In this document: positions 688-24,694 of the stretch, piece after piece | Position numbering within the stretch: position 1 is the stretch's first letter | How the letters are laid out: every line of letters starts with the position of its first letter | Source of the DNA: a virus | Strand: one strand, 5' to 3' | Virus record (IMG/VR): IMGVR_UViG_3300032294_001180 | Span: 1-29,606 of that record | DNA: 29,606 nt | Notes under the pieces: model-generated | Databases searched by the model: none | Told to the model about the DNA's origin: nothing | What the model saw: only the letters and a program-made list of their open reading frames with translations | Made by a program: the position numbers and the translations under genes

Positions 688-1067
688 AAAATGGCATTGC
701 CCGGAAGCGGAGGAACTATCACGACACCGGGGGTTACGGAAGTGAACGCTGTAATTCTAACATTGTTCAGGTAGGTATTAACGGTCTGGGTAGCCACAGG
801 AGCAAAAGCGAAGTCCGAGCAGCTATCATTCCGATTCGTGTCAGGACGAGGCTCACGCAGAGCCTGCGGGTCATTATTCAGTTTAGGCGGTGTAAGAATC
901 GGGATGAAATTTTGCGGGTGATCCGGGTCCCAACACTCGGGGCAACGCTTAGTGTTAATAAGTTTACCCATAATATAAATCTTTTTCATGACTTTCAGGT
1001 CATACCGCTCTCCACAAAGATCGCAGAAGCCATAGGCCCGTTTATAACTGGCAAATCTAGTCGCCAT
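684..1067 (-). CDS. Zn-ribbon virion-cluster protein of unknown function
   Basis: A 127-residue protein with two CxxC pairs (FCDLC near residue 15 and RCPEC near residue 43) that should form a zinc ribbon. It is followed by WDPDHPQN and then QALREPRPDTN. This combination of ribbon, 'DPDHPQ' and 'LREPRPD' recurs in proteins next to the structural genes of environmental phages; its function is unknown. The C-terminal half is Val/Thr/Pro-rich. The ribosome site is GGATAGGT before ATG. The first 11 bases overlap the 3' end of the homing endonuclease gene, which looks inserted directly in front of it. Confidence 0.75.
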   Translation of the reverse strand: MATRFASYKRAYGFCDLCGERYDLKVMKKIYIMGKLINTKRCPECWDPDHPQNFIPILTPPKLNNDPQALREPRPDTNRNDSCSDFAFAPVATQTVNTYLNNVRITAFTSVTPGVVIVPPLPGNAIL

Positions 1068-1866
1068 TTTTACCTATCCATGTGACAACCCACCCGTCTC
1101 TACGAGTTCTTTCTCCGCGTAGATATCGCATAACATTAACACGGGAAGTGCCTAAGTACTCCGCGCATTCCGTTGGATTGTTAAAGATGAGCGAATCATC
1201 ACCCCGCTGCGCCTCGACAGCGTAGTTTATCTCTTTGGCTGCTCCTATTTTAGCCCGCGTCTCTTCGCTGCGCACTGTGCCCTTAATAGCCAAAGATATT
1301 TGTTGCTTACGCGCTTCAGACAATTTAAGTCCTTTGCAATACGTGTTGCCCCGCATTCTCTGCGCCATTTTAGTCTTAGTGGTTTCCGTATGCGTATGCC
1401 CAATATGAGCCCTAGACATATTCTGTCTAGCTTCCGCAGTATGCTTTTTGCCTACCCATGCCGCTGCAACTTTGGCGGCGTGTTCTGGTGACTTTTTCTT
1501 GCCTCTTAACGCCGCGGCCACCTTACCTTTATGTTCTTCTGAAAGAGTTGTTCCATAAGTAGGATGGTCTGTGCCCGAACCAAACCCTTCGCCACCAACA
1601 CAGATGTTGTAACCTATCCTACGGGTACCATGCGCTTCGATGAGTTTGATCTCAACCATATCCGCATAGGCTTTATCGGGGCACCAACACAGGACTTTAA
1701 ACTCGAAGTTCTCCCTGCCGTGCTTTTGAACCGCCGTGCGTAGCGCCGTGCATCCTGACTTAGGCCAGTTATGCTGGTGCCTTCTCTTCTGCGGATTTAC
1801 AGATTGCCCAATATACATCTTGCCGTTTAAGATGTTTGTGACTGTGTATATAGCCACCGGGCGCAT
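1057..1866 (-). CDS. GIY-YIG homing endonuclease with NUMOD3 repeats (free-standing)
   Basis: A 269-residue protein. The start is taken as the ATG at 1866, behind GAGGAGG, rather than the TTG two codons upstream. An N-terminal GIY-YIG nuclease core is visible (AIYTVTNILNGKMYIGQS, then an Arg/His-rich helix and a conserved E in ADMVEIKLIE). Next come several NUMOD3-type repeats (LSEEHKGKVAAALRGKKKSPEH and relatives, about residues 105-205). The C-terminal segment (NNPTECAEYLGTSRVNVMRYL) looks like the small helical DNA-binding module of such enzymes. These are selfish DNA elements that cut intron-less or intergenic sites and home by repair. It overlaps the upstream gene by TGATG and the downstream gene by 11 bases, so it is an intron-free insertion within the virion operon. 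Confidence 0.9.
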   Translation of the reverse strand: MRPVAIYTVTNILNGKMYIGQSVNPQKRRHQHNWPKSGCTALRTAVQKHGRENFEFKVLCWCPDKAYADMVEIKLIEAHGTRRIGYNICVGGEGFGSGTDHPTYGTTLSEEHKGKVAAALRGKKKSPEHAAKVAAAWVGKKHTAEARQNMSRAHIGHTHTETTKTKMAQRMRGNTYCKGLKLSEARKQQISLAIKGTVRSEETRAKIGAAKEINYAVEAQRGDDSLIFNNPTECAEYLGTSRVNVMRYLRGERTRRDGWVVTWIGKNGD

Positions 1867-2573
1867 CACCAACCTCCTCGGCCTATATGCCCAACCATAG
1901 GAACGAAGCGTACAGGACTTTTATCTCTGTCCTCATCCATTGCCAACTGTAATGCTTCGTCATACGCAGCCTTAAGCATCTGGAGCCTGTTCATATCCAA
2001 GTCCGGCTGTTTTCTAGCCAAATGATACGAGAGACCCGAGGTTAATGCTTCGTAGAAGCGGAAAGGTACATCCTGTGTCGTTGTGCCCGACTGCCCAGCG
2101 TCTTGAACGCGGCGCAGATACCAATAGTGGAAAGAATACCCAGACTGATTAGGCACTTGCCACAGGTAAATTTGCGGAATAGGTGACTGCCTATTGACCC
2201 ATACCTGTACTGGGCGTCCTTGCGCTAGCTTGTTCGGGATCGCGTCATAAGTCGGCAGGGCTATACGTGGGATAACCAAATCGGTCTGATTGTATTGGCT
2301 ACCCGGATTCTGTCGAATGACTTGATCAACAAGGTCTACGCAATCCGCGGGAAGATCGTAAATGTACTGTCCTTGGATAAGCGGAATGTCCGCTTCTTCA
2401 TACGTCCAAAGATTCAACCCGTGGTTAGCGAGCTCAGTTATGAGATAGTTAAGACTCCGCCGCGCCGTGCGCGCCTGATAACCCGTGCGAATCTCAAGAC
2501 CGACGCGCTCATAGGCTTCCTCGATGATTTCATCAAGTTGCGGGTTCCAGTTAGCTGTGCCGGAGGTGCTCAT
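1866..2573 (-). CDS. Head-tail adaptor / tail-connector-like protein
   Basis: A 235-residue protein starting MSTSGTANWNPQLDEIIEEA. The helical N-terminus (DEIIEEAYERVGLEIRTGYQ, then ARRSLNYLITELANHGLNLW), a 'GQYIYDLPADCVDLVD' strand region and a C-terminal helix ending in repeated Asp/Glu are typical of the adaptor or head-completion proteins found in podovirus-like genomes. They bind under the portal and bridge to the tail. The function is inferred from this pattern and the gene's place among virion genes. It starts as TAATG overlapping the upstream gene and runs straight into the homing endonuclease. Confidence 0.7.
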   Translation of the reverse strand: MSTSGTANWNPQLDEIIEEAYERVGLEIRTGYQARTARRSLNYLITELANHGLNLWTYEEADIPLIQGQYIYDLPADCVDLVDQVIRQNPGSQYNQTDLVIPRIALPTYDAIPNKLAQGRPVQVWVNRQSPIPQIYLWQVPNQSGYSFHYWYLRRVQDAGQSGTTTQDVPFRFYEALTSGLSYHLARKQPDLDMNRLQMLKAAYDEALQLAMDEDRDKSPVRFVPMVGHIGRGGW

Positions 2574-16033: not shown

Positions 16034-16087
16034 GTTCCTTTTTACCCGGCTCCGGCGAGCCGGGCCTGCTCCGCAGGCGGGGAGGCG

Positions 16088-18868: not shown

Positions 18869-19507
18869 ATGTTAAGCAGAACACAAAAGCTGGATGGTAT
18901 TTATTCATGGTCACTCCTTGCGAGTACCCACTGCCCGGGCAGGATCAACTTGATAACCCAAAAGGTTGCCGAGGTATGCGAGGGATGCTACGCCATGGAT
19001 GGCAACTACAGGTTCCCCAACGTGCGGGCTGTACGCATACAGAATGCCGAGGACTGGCAGAGTGAGGACTGGGTGGACCGCATGGTGGCTGACCTGCAAG
19101 GTCAGGAGTACTTCCGTTGGTTCGACTCTGGTGATGCCTATTCCCTGACGCTAGCGCGCAAGATCCTGCGAGTGATGGAGCGTACACCTAACACCAAGCA
19201 CTGGTTGGCTACGCGCATGGGCAAGTTCGACAAGTTCAGGCCTGTGCTCGACGCAATGCGTAGGCTACCTAACGTGGCCGTGAGGTTCAGTGCAGATGAC
19301 ATCGGCGTGTTTGGTTCTGAGCATTCATGCATGGTGTTCGACCCGTCAGGTCCCGTGCCCGAGGGAGTGAAGGCATGCAATGCCTATGTTGCAGAGGGTG
19401 ACAAGGTAGCCAAGTGCCATGGGTGCCGTGACTGTTGGGACAAGACTATCCCAGTGATTGGGTACAAGGCACATGGTCGCCGGATGATTAAACTTTTGGA
19501 GGTGTGA
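18869..19507 (+). CDS. GP88-like cysteine-rich protein
   Basis: A 212-residue protein matching the phage 'GP88' family (named for a mycobacteriophage gene product) by pattern: CPG at 22-24, CEGCYA (37-42), 'GNYRFPNVRAV', 'YFRWFDSGDAYSLTLARKIL' (81-100) and 'NVAVRFSADDIG' near 135-146. The C-terminus has four Cys (170, 183, 186, 189), with another at 154. Eight Cys suggest an Fe-S cluster or zinc. The spacing (CxxC plus distal Cys, 'RWFDSGD') is reminiscent of radical-SAM-like or ribonuclease-related folds, but the activity is unknown. It follows palindrome copy 6. Confidence 0.8.
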   Translation: MLSRTQKLDGIYSWSLLASTHCPGRINLITQKVAEVCEGCYAMDGNYRFPNVRAVRIQNAEDWQSEDWVDRMVADLQGQEYFRWFDSGDAYSLTLARKILRVMERTPNTKHWLATRMGKFDKFRPVLDAMRRLPNVAVRFSADDIGVFGSEHSCMVFDPSGPVPEGVKACNAYVAEGDKVAKCHGCRDCWDKTIPVIGYKAHGRRMIKLLEV

Positions 19508-20237: not shown

Positions 20238-20400
20238 GTGGAAACAAGTGATAGATGCTATGCGTGAGGCAGGGTATGCCGTGTGGTGGTTCGGGCCTCA
20301 TGAACTTGAGAGGTATGACATAGATGCAGGTCTGGCCGAGGACTGGATGGCCGATGCTCTGGTGGATATCCAACAGCACTATAAGAATAGAGGTGATTGA
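20227..20400 (+). CDS. Small protein, 57 aa
   Basis: ATG 20227, behind GGAGGTG, to TGA 20400 encodes MKPEWKQVIDAMREAGYAVW and continues as WFGPHELERYDIDAGLAEDW. The helical start and Trp pairs suggest a folded small protein. It overlaps both neighbours (11 nt upstream, TGATG downstream). No family is recognised. Confidence 0.65.
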   Translation: MKPEWKQVIDAMREAGYAVWWFGPHELERYDIDAGLAEDWMADALVDIQQHYKNRGD

Positions 20401-20840
20401 TGAATATCTTTGTACTTGACGATAACCCGTGGTGCGCTGCGTTTGCACACTGCGATAAGCATGTGCCGAAGATGATCCTCGAGAGCGCGCAGATGCTCTC
20501 GACTGTACTGGGTGGGCCGTACAAACCCACGCACAAGAACCATCCATGCACACTATGGGTTGCCGAGTCACGCACAAATGCTCAGTGGTTGTGGTCACTG
20601 GCGGATGGGCTCAATTGCGAGTACAAAGATCGGTTCAATCATGAGCGCAACCACAAGTCATGGGATGTAGTCGAGCCCCTGTGGCGTGCTATCAATACGC
20701 TACCTGAACGGGGCTTGACCCCGTTCGCTCAGGCTATGCCTGACGAATATAGAAATGAGGATGCAGTCGAGGCCTACCGTGCTTATTATAGAAGCAAGGC
20801 TTTCGCGGAGTGGCGCAACGGCGCACCCGCATGGTGGTGA
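20400..20840 (+). CDS. Phage protein of the CDKHVPKMILESAQML type
   Basis: A 146-residue protein starting at ATG 20400. Motifs: MNIFVLDDNPWCAAFAHCDK, HVPKMILESAQMLSTVLGG, then HKNHPCTLWVAESRTNAQWL and EYKDRFNHERNHKS. These recur in a broad family of small phage proteins (CDKHVxKMxLExAQML... HPCxxWVxxS). I recall no proven function. The conserved His, Cys, Asp and Glu residues look like an active or metal site, and the end (YYRSKAFAEWRNGAPAWW) recalls T4 endonuclease V-like ends. A DNA glycosylase link is only a weak possibility. It is the last gene before a 340-nt gap. Confidence 0.75.
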   Translation: MNIFVLDDNPWCAAFAHCDKHVPKMILESAQMLSTVLGGPYKPTHKNHPCTLWVAESRTNAQWLWSLADGLNCEYKDRFNHERNHKSWDVVEPLWRAINTLPERGLTPFAQAMPDEYRNEDAVEAYRAYYRSKAFAEWRNGAPAWW

Positions 20841-20853
20841 TGATTTTCTGGTG

Positions 20854-20872
20854 AGAGGGTTCGAGTCCCTCT
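20854..20872 (+). other. tRNA T-arm-like stem-loop
   Basis: AGAGGG-TTCGAGT-CCCTCT pairs perfectly (6 bp) around a 7-nt loop with the TTCGA core of tRNA T-loops. It is followed by ACGGGGTGTAA, like an acceptor 3' strand. No matching 5' acceptor strand or anticodon arm is seen upstream, so it is not a complete tRNA gene. It may be a tRNA remnant or an old attachment site. Confidence 0.5.
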
Positions 20873-21031
20873 ACGGGGTGTAAGCCATGAGTATCCCCGC
20901 TTGCGTAATAACCGTGGCTGTTATCGATAGTGCCGGATCGCGTTAATCGAAGGAGCTTTGCTCCCTTGTTTCAGGCGCGCGCCTCTCACACTAGGCGATG
21001 ACCCTTGGGGTGGTGGTCAACCCCGCTTTAC

Positions 21032-21059
21032 TTGACTTACATGGTCAAGCGTATATAAT
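21032..21059 (+). promoter_or_regulatory. Strong sigma70-type promoter for the MoxR/VWA block
   Basis: TTGACT (21032-21037), 16 bases, TATAAT (21054-21059): five of six in the -35 and a perfect -10. The transcript should begin near 21066 and open with a hairpin at 21069-21085. It drives the genes from 21183. The arrangement copies the promoter at 17636. Confidence 0.85.
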
Positions 21060-21085: not shown

Positions 21086-21142
21086 TGTATATATAGAGCG
21101 TCTAGCATCATGGGTTTGGCCCATGCTGGTGGGTGTTCCGCC

Positions 21143-21162
21143 AACCCTGACGGTCAGGGTTC
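21143..21162. repeat. Palindromic repeat copy 7 (central G)
   Basis: AACCCTGACGGTCAGGGTT (21143-21161) plus C, in the leader between the promoter at 21032 and ATG 21183. It is the last copy seen in the window. Confidence 0.95.
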
Positions 21163-21182
21163 ACTTAATTGAGGATGTAAGC

Positions 21183-22115
21183 ATGAACGCACTTTCTTCT
21201 GTTGTTTCTTCTGCTGTTGACACTGCAGTTTCTTCTGTCAACTTCGATGCTGCCACGATGGCAGCTAACCTGATGCTGGTCAACGTGTCCTTCACTGGGT
21301 GGGATGCGTCTCTCACTGACAAGTCTACGGCGCGTGAGGTCGAGGCCAACAAGGGCGCTAGCGGTAAGGCATGCAGTGTGCGCAAGTACCTGCTGGGTGA
21401 TACCAAAGAGCTGACGGCTATCCGCTCGCATCAAGGGTCTATCGGTGCATGGTTCCGCAGTCAGTCTGCATCATGGCTCGAGGGTTCCTATCGTGCGGTA
21501 CCTATCCGTACTTATGAGCGCATCCTCGAGCGCCTCGCCGAGTTCAAGGAGGAGCGGGCTGTACTTGTGGAGAACCTGATCTCTGTGTATTCGACAGCGA
21601 TTCAGAAGCAGGCCTTTGCCATGGGTGCATTGTTTGATCGCAATGACTACCCGAGCGAGGACGAGCTGCGTGCTCGGTTCACCATGACGGTCAGCACCAT
21701 CCCGTTCCGCGCAGATCCCAACGACTTCCGTTGTGCTCTGCCTCAGGCCCAGCTCGACAAGATCAAGAATGACTACAAGGCGCAGATCACTGGCGCTGTC
21801 GAGATGGCCATGCGTGAAGCATGGGATCAGTTGTATGCAACCATCAAGACTCTCGCTACTCAGCTACGGGTCAAGGGGTTGGACGGTGCAGATAAGACGG
21901 GCCGTGTGCATGAGTCTACGCTGCAGGCTTTGTTCGATACGCTCGACGTGATGGATGGGCTCAACCTGACCAGCGACCCGGCCATGACTGAGCGACTGCG
22001 TGAGCTTCGCAAGATCATCAACGGGCAGGACGTGGAGACCCTGCGTAAGGATGAGGCTACACGCATCGCAGTGAAGCAGGACCTCGACGCGCTGCTTTCC
22101 AAGTTCGACTACTAA
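21183..22115 (+). CDS. DUF3150-like protein, partner of the MoxR/VWA pair
   Basis: A 310-residue protein starting at ATG 21183 behind GAGG; the frame open back to 21123 runs through palindrome copy 7. It has an N-terminal 'LMLVNVSFTGWDASLTDKST' strand, then 'CSVRKYLLGDTKELTAIRSH', a long helical middle (about 105-160) and a C-terminal coiled region (VMDGLNLTSDPAMTERLREL). This order fits DUF3150 proteins, found in phages and plasmids beside a MoxR AAA+ gene. The role is unknown; it probably binds or delivers substrates to the ATPase. It is the first gene of the promoter-21032 transcript and is followed after 27 nt by the AAA+ gene. Confidence 0.75.
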   Translation: MNALSSVVSSAVDTAVSSVNFDAATMAANLMLVNVSFTGWDASLTDKSTAREVEANKGASGKACSVRKYLLGDTKELTAIRSHQGSIGAWFRSQSASWLEGSYRAVPIRTYERILERLAEFKEERAVLVENLISVYSTAIQKQAFAMGALFDRNDYPSEDELRARFTMTVSTIPFRADPNDFRCALPQAQLDKIKNDYKAQITGAVEMAMREAWDQLYATIKTLATQLRVKGLDGADKTGRVHESTLQALFDTLDVMDGLNLTSDPAMTERLRELRKIINGQDVETLRKDEATRIAVKQDLDALLSKFDY

Positions 22116-22142
22116 TAACCAGACATAGACAGGAGTAATTCA

Positions 22143-23231
22143 ATGGCTACTATTCGCAACAACTATTCGGCTCTCGGCTTCAACGAGATGGTTGACCTCA
22201 TCCTTGCGGTGGGTCTGGCAGGCAACTCGATCCATGTCGAGGGGCATATGGGCTCGGGCAAGTCTTCGCTCCATACCGCTGTGGTCGAGCGTCTGGGTGG
22301 TACGCACATCGGCGTGGCTCTCGATGCGACACAGCTTGTGGATCAGGGTGACCTCATGATGATGAAGTTCAAGTCCATCAACGGCCATGACGTGGTGGGC
22401 CCGGTACCGCAGGAGCGCCTCGGTATTCACTTCGATAAACCTGTGGTGCTGTTTATTGACGAGGTGACCAAGAACCGTGCGCTGATCCCGTCACTGCTTC
22501 AGATCATGAACGAGCACACGCTGTGTGGCATGCGACTGCCTGAGGGTAGCATCGTGATGTCGGCAGGTAACCTTGGCGAGGAGGGTGTGGGTGATGTGTT
22601 CCCTGCTCATGCATGTAATCGTGTAGTGATTGCCGAGCTGCGTAACCCGACAGCCATGGAGTGGATCGAGCAGTATGCGATACCGCATAACCTGCATGCT
22701 GCCATCATTGCGACTGCCCATCAGTTCCCGATGATGTTCGATTCGTTCCGCGATGTCGAGGACCCCAAGCTCAACCCTTACATCATGCATCCCAAGACCA
22801 AGCGCCGTAGCTTTGTGACTGCCCGGTCTCTGGCTCGGGCATCGTCAGTGCTGTATGCGACTGAGCATCTTCCCGCTCATGTTCGGATGCACGCCCTGTG
22901 CGGTACGGTGGGTGAGGCTGCTGCTGCCGACATCATGACAGTGGTTCGCCTTGATGAGCAGATGCCTGTGTGGGAACGCATCGTGGCTGATCCTCTGACT
23001 GCGCAGATCCCTGACTCTGCGGTGGCGCAATGTGTGCTGGTCATGCGTGCTGTCAAGATGGTCAAGCACACGACGATGGATGCGTGGATGTCCTACCTCA
23101 CCCGTATGGGTAAGGAGACGCAGGCTCTGTTCGCCCGGTCCATGCTCAAGTCCTCACGGTCAGCAGAGGCTACGGTCAATGCGACATTCAAGGACTGGCT
23201 GGCAGCTAATCAATATCTGTTCGGAGGTTAA
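22143..23231 (+). CDS. MoxR-type AAA+ ATPase
   Basis: A 362-residue protein. Walker A is GHMGSGKS (34-41), Walker B is VVLFIDE (101-107), sensor 1 is MSAGN (139-143) and a likely arginine finger is R160 (HACNR). The 'VVLFIDEVTKNRALIPSLLQ' and 'NEHTLCGMRLPEGSIVM' segments are typical of MoxR/CbbQ ATPases. These hexamers remodel or activate partner proteins, usually one with a VWA domain, and such a partner is encoded downstream. The C-terminal 190 residues are helical, with no recognised added domain. The ribosome site is AGGAG. It sits between the DUF3150-like gene and a small unknown gene. Confidence 0.92.
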   Translation: MATIRNNYSALGFNEMVDLILAVGLAGNSIHVEGHMGSGKSSLHTAVVERLGGTHIGVALDATQLVDQGDLMMMKFKSINGHDVVGPVPQERLGIHFDKPVVLFIDEVTKNRALIPSLLQIMNEHTLCGMRLPEGSIVMSAGNLGEEGVGDVFPAHACNRVVIAELRNPTAMEWIEQYAIPHNLHAAIIATAHQFPMMFDSFRDVEDPKLNPYIMHPKTKRRSFVTARSLARASSVLYATEHLPAHVRMHALCGTVGEAAAADIMTVVRLDEQMPVWERIVADPLTAQIPDSAVAQCVLVMRAVKMVKHTTMDAWMSYLTRMGKETQALFARSMLKSSRSAEATVNATFKDWLAANQYLFGG

Positions 23232-23232
23232 T

Positions 23233-23556
23233 ATGTCAAAGCGTGATGTCTACGGTATGTTCAATGTCTACGGGTCCTACGCGCTACCCCTTGAGGTAGC
23301 GCAGAAGATACAGGGGCTCCTTGCGGAGTATGGGTTCCGGCATGAATATATTCACAACGAGGGTAGGACTGTTCAAGCCAAGCGCGAGATCGACGTGCCT
23401 GAGCTGCGGGTGATCAAGGGTAATCTGCTCGACGCAACCACACTGACGGATAACGAATTCGACGAGTGGCAGCGCAACATCAAGGATGCCCGGGCTATTA
23501 ATAAAGACTGCGAGGTCATGGACCCCGTGCAATTCAAAATGGTAAGAGGTGACTGA
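23233..23556 (+). CDS. Small unknown protein in the MoxR/VWA block
   Basis: The start is ATG 23233 behind GGAGG, 1 nt after the ATPase stop (TAATATG). The longer open frame from 23032 lies inside the ATPase gene and is rejected. It encodes 107 residues (MSKRDVYGMFNVYGSYALPL). An N-terminal mixed region (EVAQKIQGLLAEYGFRHEYI) is followed by a charged helical part (TLTDNEFDEWQRNIKDARAI). No family is recognised. Conserved placement between the ATPase and VWA genes suggests it may be an accessory of that system; this is inference. Confidence 0.75.
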   Translation: MSKRDVYGMFNVYGSYALPLEVAQKIQGLLAEYGFRHEYIHNEGRTVQAKREIDVPELRVIKGNLLDATTLTDNEFDEWQRNIKDARAINKDCEVMDPVQFKMVRGD

Positions 23557-23557
23557 T

Positions 23558-24694
23558 ATGCAAGCAGAACAAAAGATTGAACGTGCTCATGTGATTATCA
23601 TGGGCAACCCCGAGCTGAGCCTGTTCAGCAGGCTCATCATGATGGGTACTACGCGAGTCGATGACAGCGTACCCACTGCCTATACTGACGGACTTAATAA
23701 AGTCTATGGCCGTGCATTTGTTGACAAGTGCACCATGCCTGAGCTTGTCGGTACGATCATCCATGAGGCCAGCCATATCCTATTCAGCCATGCATGGCTG
23801 TGGATTCACCTCTGGAAGCAGGACGCACAGCGTGCCAACAAGGCGGCTGACTATGTCATCAACCTGATGATTGACGATCTGGCCAAGCGCATCAACATTG
23901 GTAAGGAGATCATGGTGCTGCCCGCTGGTGCGCTGCTCGACAATATGTACCGGGGCATGGACACGCAGGAGGTGTTCGCTCTGTTGGGTAAGCAGGACAA
24001 CAACCCTGACAAGAGCAACTTCGACCAGCATGACTTCAAGGATGACATCACTCCGCAAGAGGTCGAGGAGATGCAGCAAGAGGTAGAGGCTGCTGTGCGT
24101 GAGGGTAAGCTGCACATGGGTCGCATGGGTGGTAGCGGTCACCGTGCCATTGACGGTATGCTCGAGCCCAAGGTTCGGTGGGAGGACATCATGCGTAACT
24201 TCGCATATGAGCAGGCCAAGGGTAACGAGCTCAACAACTGGACGCGCCCTAACCGCCGTCACCTGCAGCATGACATCATCATGCCATCTAAGCGCAGCGA
24301 GCGACTGCGTGCTGTGGCTGTCATCACCGACACATCAGGTTCTGTTGACGAGGAACTGGTCTCGTTCTTCCTCGGCAATGTCGGTCGCATCTGCGACACG
24401 CTCGAGCCAAGCGCCCTGCACTTCATCTGCTGGGACGCCAAGCTTCAGTCGCATGATGTCTACACTCGCGGGTCATATGATGAGCTGCTCAATCGCCGTC
24501 AGTTCAAGGGCGGTGGCGGTACGGACATGGCCAAGGCTGTGCAGTATGTCGAGGACAACATCGACGCGGATCTGGTTCTGGTTCTGACCGACGGCTACAC
24601 GCCGTGGCCGTCCGAGGTGAAGCGCCCTACGTTCTGGGGTATCACTACTAAGGGTAAGACAGCACCTGTCGGGGTATCCGTCCATGTCTGTTAG
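23558..24694 (+). CDS. Metallopeptidase-VWA fusion protein (DUF2201-like)
   Basis: A 378-residue protein; ATG 23558 follows AGAGGTGA. The N-terminal domain has the zinc-peptidase signature HEASH (69-73) inside 'ELVGTIIHEASHILFSHAWL'. The middle is an acidic linker (about 145-185). The C-terminal VWA domain has MIDAS residues D258-x-S260-x-S262 (DTSGS), T322 (GGGGTD) and D345 (LTDG). The layout fits the DUF2201 putative metallopeptidase plus VWA family, the classic partner of MoxR ATPases. VWA domains bind metal through MIDAS and dock to the ATPase. Whether the HExxH acts as a protease is unknown. It ends the block and overlaps the next ORF by 11 nt. Confidence 0.9.
   Translation: MQAEQKIERAHVIIMGNPELSLFSRLIMMGTTRVDDSVPTAYTDGLNKVYGRAFVDKCTMPELVGTIIHEASHILFSHAWLWIHLWKQDAQRANKAADYVINLMIDDLAKRINIGKEIMVLPAGALLDNMYRGMDTQEVFALLGKQDNNPDKSNFDQHDFKDDITPQEVEEMQQEVEAAVREGKLHMGRMGGSGHRAIDGMLEPKVRWEDIMRNFAYEQAKGNELNNWTRPNRRHLQHDIIMPSKRSERLRAVAVITDTSGSVDEELVSFFLGNVGRICDTLEPSALHFICWDAKLQSHDVYTRGSYDELLNRRQFKGGGGTDMAKAVQYVEDNIDADLVLVLTDGYTPWPSEVKRPTFWGITTKGKTAPVGVSVHVC

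Follow-up and report, generated by a model that had tools for sequence, protein, structure and literature searches.

Gene content of the block

The virus record IMGVR_UViG_3300032294_001180 of IMG/VR (29,606 bases, analysed in full and called the window below) carries a plus-strand block of four open reading frames (ORFs) at positions 21183-24694, which encode a DUF3150-like protein (P0001), a MoxR-like AAA+ ATPase (P0002), a protein of 107 amino acids (aa; P0003) and a metallopeptidase fused to a VWA domain (P0004). The left half of the window holds head and packaging genes on the minus strand (portal, terminase, major head protein), and the block sits in the right half, among mainly small genes on the plus strand. 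All four ORFs lie on one strand where an initial annotation had placed them, each with a purine-rich, Shine-Dalgarno-like stretch upstream (Table 1). Our analysis indicates that the first, second and fourth genes, referred to below as the trio, encode a real, uncharacterised machine of mobile DNA, in which the DUF3150-like gene is a new part of an otherwise known AAA+/peptidase-VWA pair. The initial annotation had overlooked earlier descriptions of the pair in phages, as well as the presence of the whole trio on plasmids and in bacterial loci, a presence that changes the functional reading.

Table 1. Position of the block and of associated features (window coordinates, unless a locus is named)
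Feature	Position	Strand	Basis or remark
DUF3150-like protein P0001, 310 aa	21183-22115	+	PF11348 matches of relatives, fold, pRA1 gene
MoxR-like AAA+ ATPase P0002, 362 aa, N4 gp24 type	22143-23231	+	phrog_1297, motifs
107-aa protein P0003, optional, function unassigned	23233-23556	+	one clear relative (L020)
DUF2201_N metallopeptidase-DUF2201 VWA fusion P0004, 378 aa, N4 gp25 type	23558-24694	+	Pfam, HExxH and MIDAS
114-aa gene overlapping the 3' end of the P0004 gene	24684-25028	+	cluster-3 profile, E-value 1.5e-15
Sigma70-type promoter TTGACT-N16-TATAAT	21032-21059	+	11/12 match
Copy 7 of the 23-bp palindrome TGAACCCTGACsGTCAGGGTTCA	21137-21163		about 20 bp 5' of the first start codon
Cluster 3 and 4 examples	L028 10710-11519, L073 4884-5834		

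The ATPase and the metallopeptidase-VWA protein

P0002 matches phrog_1297 (E-value 1.6e-38). Walker A (GHMGSGKS, residues 34-41), Walker B (D106 and E107) and R160 are intact, as the initial annotation had described; across 52 relatives these motifs, N143 and R228 show little or no variation. P0002 has the Walker A and B motifs, the arginine finger and the adjoining VWA gene of a MoxR-type ATPase, but the MoxR-type Pfam models stay under threshold (bpMoxR, 14.1 bits for a required 27), and we therefore call the protein MoxR-like only. By sequence, its closest PDB relatives are midasin rings (1.6e-14).

The proposed fusion of an HExxH motif with a metal ion-dependent adhesion site (MIDAS) was likewise borne out. 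P0004 matches DUF2201_N (2.1e-16; 60.8 bits, cut-off 23.2) and DUF2201 (6.8e-14; 52.5 bits, cut-off 26.4), and both motifs are intact (HEASH, that is H69, E70 and H73; MIDAS residues D258, S260 and S262, with T322 and D345). Among 164 homologues, H69, H73, D258, S260, S262 and D345 are kept throughout, H78 in 163 and E70 in 159. Residues N94, A96, D98 and N102 formed part of the search pattern, so that their conservation is biased; the third metal ligand is, at a guess, H78 or D98. Alignments of this family made after A2 exclude the row of locus L012, a different gene. In a structure search the VWA model matches the MIDAS domain of MDN1, it is similar to the VWA domain of ViaA, and the AAA+/VWA partnership put forward earlier is supported.

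Two further observations concern this family. It is mislabelled as HNH endonuclease in PHROGs (phrog_1314) and in many RefSeq phage records, including those of N4-like phages. Four bacterial AAA+/VWA pairs that lack a DUF3150-like gene (L156, L160, L179 and L180) have lost the glutamate of HExxH and kept its histidines, and their proteins are possible pseudo-peptidases.

The DUF3150-like protein

P0001 has no direct Pfam match (E-values up to 10), nor any PHROG or NCBIfam match, and is for this reason named DUF3150-like rather than a member of the Pfam family. The initial assignment nevertheless holds by an indirect route. PF11348 is matched by 53 of the 67 relatives of P0001 (best 5.7e-8), and plasmid homologues are found at E-values of about 1e-15, some of them annotated as DUF3150. 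The AlphaFold model (predicted local distance difference test score, pLDDT, 87.6) has a phage DUF3150 protein as its best BFVD match (2.5e-15), and nothing below E 0.3 among solved structures. The DUF3150 gene of plasmid pRA1 was recovered by both models, including the profile of the P0001 family, with weak homology. Relatives, predicted fold and the pRA1 protein thus support homology of the P0001 family to DUF3150, whose alignments are too divergent to serve pattern scans. The idea that P0001 might be a detached N-terminal domain of ViaA was rejected, as it bears no resemblance to ViaA.

The complete genome of Tunturiibacter phage Tunturi_3 carries a lone DUF3150-like gene (gp96; L002, 7803-8762), in which the label HNH endonuclease looks wrong; a peptidase-VWA gene was not found in this phage. 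The term DUF3150 was not met in the literature searched, the coverage of which was limited, so that novelty is suggested but not proven.

Recurrence of the trio in phages, plasmids and bacteria

Scans of viral contigs with P0001, P0003 and P0004 as single proteins gave no relatives, and a profile-based scan for the peptidase-VWA protein later turned up 80 viral loci, the ORFs of which were searched with three profiles (E-values of the locus scans are relative to the candidates). All three genes are present in 63 of the 80 loci, far above chance, although neither these loci nor those counted below represent independent events, and many of them are fragments. The neighbourhood therefore recurs in other phages as the initial annotation had anticipated, though in three gene orders: writing A for the ATPase, V for the peptidase-VWA protein and D for the DUF3150-like gene, 34 loci are A-V-D, 28 are D-A-V, like the window, and one is A-D-V. 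The DUF3150-like gene is found in 29 of the 34 viral loci with long flanks. Isolates that carry it include Synechococcus phage MinM2 and two Planktothrix phages.

The trio is not confined to viruses. Scanning bacterial genomes, we obtained 80 loci. A DUF3150-like gene is present in 54 of these, mainly in the order A-D-V, and hosts of the bacterial trio include Acidobacteria, Bacteroidota, Cloacimonadota, Chloroflexi and Proteobacteria. A-D-V operons are also found on plasmids of Burkholderiales and Rhodovastum, some of them adjoining type IV secretion genes. In Acidobacteria, a Siphovirus Gp157 gene comes after the trio at several loci, frequently joined by an RNase H-like gene, a setting suggestive of mobile elements.

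When mapped onto a tree of 83 peptidase-VWA proteins, the occurrence of the DUF3150-like gene takes 14 changes to explain, against 24 when labels are shuffled (none of 500 shuffles was as low), some of the 'absent' labels stemming from truncated contigs. Presence is therefore clustered, yet the gene has been lost or gained repeatedly. Phages HTVC027P and DSL-LC04, among the nearest isolates by terminase, carry neither the DUF3150-like nor the peptidase-VWA gene, which makes the module optional in the wider phage group.

Comparison with known systems

Like the window, N4 (gp24 and gp25) and the jumbo phages of group 2.2 have homologous AAA+ and metallopeptidase-VWA genes, adjacent or near one another. 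The pair is known from jumbo phages, where a role in virion assembly was proposed (Iyer et al. 2021, PMC7824862), and N4 gp24 and gp25, which belong to the middle genes, are part of the core gene set in N4-like phages and are recorded as unknown or as having a vWFA domain (PMC4193335). MinM2 resembles the window more fully: according to its depositors' annotation, it has MoxR ATPase, DUF3150 and VWA-like genes together, but in the order A-D-V and with other small genes interspersed. In the Burkholderiales plasmids (for example Cupriavidus pMTS2 and pBVIE02) the same three families form a compact operon, which differs from the block in its order (A-D-V rather than D-A-V), in the absence of the 107-aa gene and in an identity of about 18-31% to the window proteins.

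The IncA plasmid pRA1 also has DUF3150 beside AAA+ and VWA genes. There the cluster reads AAA-bet-exo-DUF3150-VWA, with the AAA+ gene upstream and DUF3150 and a CobT-like VWA gene after bet and exo. It differs from the window in that bet and exo lie inside the cluster, the AAA+ protein is of the CbbQ/NorQ type and the VWA protein lacks a metallopeptidase domain. In the related integrative and conjugative element SXT, deletion of bet, exo, s067, s068 and s070 cut transfer tenfold at most (PMC2791158); from their position only, we infer that s067 and s068 are the DUF3150 and VWA equivalents. RavA-ViaA and midasin/Rea1 share with the window an AAA+ ring and a MIDAS/VWA partner, but have no peptidase domain, and the DUF3150-like protein of the window is unlike ViaA.

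Genomic context and regulatory elements

In relatives of the window, the terminase usually lies on one strand, and the opposite strand carries small genes, the trio, cluster 3, an Hjc/VRR-NUC nuclease and a family-A DNA polymerase (identified from its own sequence and from how its relatives are annotated). In this phage group the trio is a stable core of the early/replication arm rather than part of a variable island. Two neighbouring families, both without a Pfam match, accompany the trio in viral loci, cluster 3 in 58 of 80 and cluster 4 in 49 of 80. Cluster 4 is absent from the window, and the 114-aa product downstream of the block, a short relative of cluster 3, matches the C-terminal part of that family.

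The suggestion that the 107-aa gene is a fourth component did not survive: among 80 neighbour loci, the only clear relative of P0003 occupies the corresponding position in L020 (6e-11), and four weak ones lie near the trio (L021, L025, L056 and L091). A conserved fourth subunit is therefore rejected.

The block does appear to have its own promoter, as first proposed. An equally good site arose in 2 of 3000 simulated 342-bp gaps of the same composition, and the whole window has two such sites, against 0.22 expected per strand. Seven copies of the palindrome, starting at 16085, 16150, 17545, 17719, 18114, 18824 and 21137, all fall within 16.0-21.2 kb (14 strand matches, 0.03 expected). Four of the seven lie 10-20 bp upstream of a start codon, and two lie about 55-80 bp downstream of the two best-matching sigma70-type promoters of the window (17636 and 21032). 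The palindrome was not found in 185 other loci; L001, which duplicates part of the window, stops short of the palindrome region. The hairpin at 21137 is no more stable than those of shuffled sequences. It is possible that the palindrome is an operator, or a leader element or hairpin, of an early regulon.

Elsewhere in the window, a GIY-YIG homing endonuclease gene lies amid the structural genes (1057-1872, minus strand; phrog_314, 1.4e-41), a GP88 family gene lies at 18869-19507 (PF17338, 2.1e-27) and a pyrimidine dimer DNA glycosylase-like gene at 20397-20840 (PF03013 slightly under the cut-off). The last is also present in L020 (4.8e-49), which holds the closest relative of the trio. At 20850-20890, the sequences GAGGGTTCGAGTCCCTC and then TACGGGGT resemble the T-arm and the 3' acceptor strand of a tRNA; neither ARAGORN nor Rfam reports a tRNA there.

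Possible functions of the trio

How could such a module serve its carriers? We give an even chance to the view that the block encodes a three-subunit, ATP-driven complex that remodels, and perhaps cleaves, proteins in the service of the DNA metabolism of mobile elements. In such a complex the AAA+ protein, judging from its family, would form the ring motor. The peptidase-VWA protein would dock on the ring and grip the target through its MIDAS metal site, as in midasin/Rea1, NorQ/NorD and RavA/ViaA. The DUF3150-like protein, whose association with the pair is observed, may be a dedicated third subunit, an adaptor or the first substrate. The HExxH domain, probably a zinc binder, may cleave the proteins that the ring pulls out. 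Given the placement among early and replication genes, the likeliest target would be a replication or recombination protein of the element itself, or an obstructing host protein; this is the weakest step. In favour of the complex are the recurrence of the trio in viral and bacterial loci, on plasmids and in MinM2, the correlated distances of its three proteins, the conserved HExxH histidines and MIDAS residues, the similarity to midasin rings and to the MIDAS of MDN1, the nuclease and polymerase genes nearby, and the placement of DUF3150 and VWA behind bet and exo in pRA1. A bolder version, in which a new AAA+ protease-like machine of three subunits remodels or cuts proteins at replication or recombination in phages, plasmids and bacterial elements, with DUF3150 as its substrate or as gatekeeper of the peptidase, seems to us doubtful.

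Several points weigh against the remodelling complex. The DUF3150-like gene is absent genome-wide from all 11 isolated phages picked for their AAA+/VWA pair (N4-like and others), and together with Tunturi_3, which has the DUF3150-like gene without the peptidase-VWA gene, these phages show that the trio is not obligate. Pairwise distances of the trio proteins correlate at 0.66-0.70 with one another, against 0.10-0.34 with the neighbouring VRR-NUC gene, but the unrelated cluster 4 correlates with the trio equally well (0.62-0.70), so that the distances indicate shared inheritance and are not proof of contact. A metallopeptidase was not among the best matches in the search of solved structures, and E70 is lost in five homologues, all bacterial, so that catalysis is not required everywhere. 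The pRA1 comparison is remote, since its VWA protein lacks the metallopeptidase domain. The link to replication is drawn by gene position only. There is a hint that loss of E70 may be coupled to loss of the DUF3150-like gene: the residue is missing at 4 of the 21 loci that lack the gene and at 1 of the 49 that have it (Fisher p = 0.026, uncorrected for relatedness).

Three other functions were considered. A chaperone of virion assembly that processes structural proteins, as proposed for the jumbo-phage pair by analogy with p618/p892 of Acidianus two-tailed virus (PMC7824862), would fit the second structural module that N4-like roseophages have near their gp24/gp25 homologues (PMC4193335). We find it unlikely. 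The main argument against a role confined to virion assembly is that the same trio occurs on plasmids that make no virions, some of them near type IV secretion genes. Its position in the early/replication arm of relatives of the window, on the strand opposite to that of the terminase, argues likewise, and N4 gp24 and gp25, moreover, are middle genes.

Less probable still is a system of superinfection exclusion or anti-phage conflict carried by mobile elements, with a logic akin to that of the MoxR-vWA ternary systems. The trio does move between phages, plasmids and bacterial genomes, and conflict systems built around a core MoxR-vWA pair are known (PMC7159879). However, we found neither a notable PADLOC family match nor a toxin-like effector domain, and in this phage group the genes form a stable core with replication genes.

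Finally, viral AAA+/VWA clusters have been read as cobST genes aiding cobalamin synthesis, the peptidase label of cyanophage cobT being called mistaken (Liu et al. 2021, PMC8651126), and pRA1 does carry a CobT-like VWA gene adjoining DUF3150, but a CobS/CobT helper that uses host CobN to raise cobalamin supply is very improbable here, for there is no NCBIfam CobS or CobT match, the HExxH histidines are invariant in a motif outside the description of CobT, and the partner is DUF3150, with no CobN-like gene among the recurrent neighbours. The homologues studied here, among which cyanophage cobT does not figure, have a Pfam metallopeptidase domain and a conserved HExxH.

Returning to the remodelling complex, the occurrence of DUF3150 as a specific third partner in many environmental phages, plasmids and bacteria makes a single testable complex out of two unknowns. 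The trio gives DUF3150 a context and narrows the function to something common to phages and plasmids, a shared role that a virion-only function does not explain. It also bears on the homologues of N4 gp24 and gp25, which are core to a whole phage family and widely mislabelled as HNH endonucleases.

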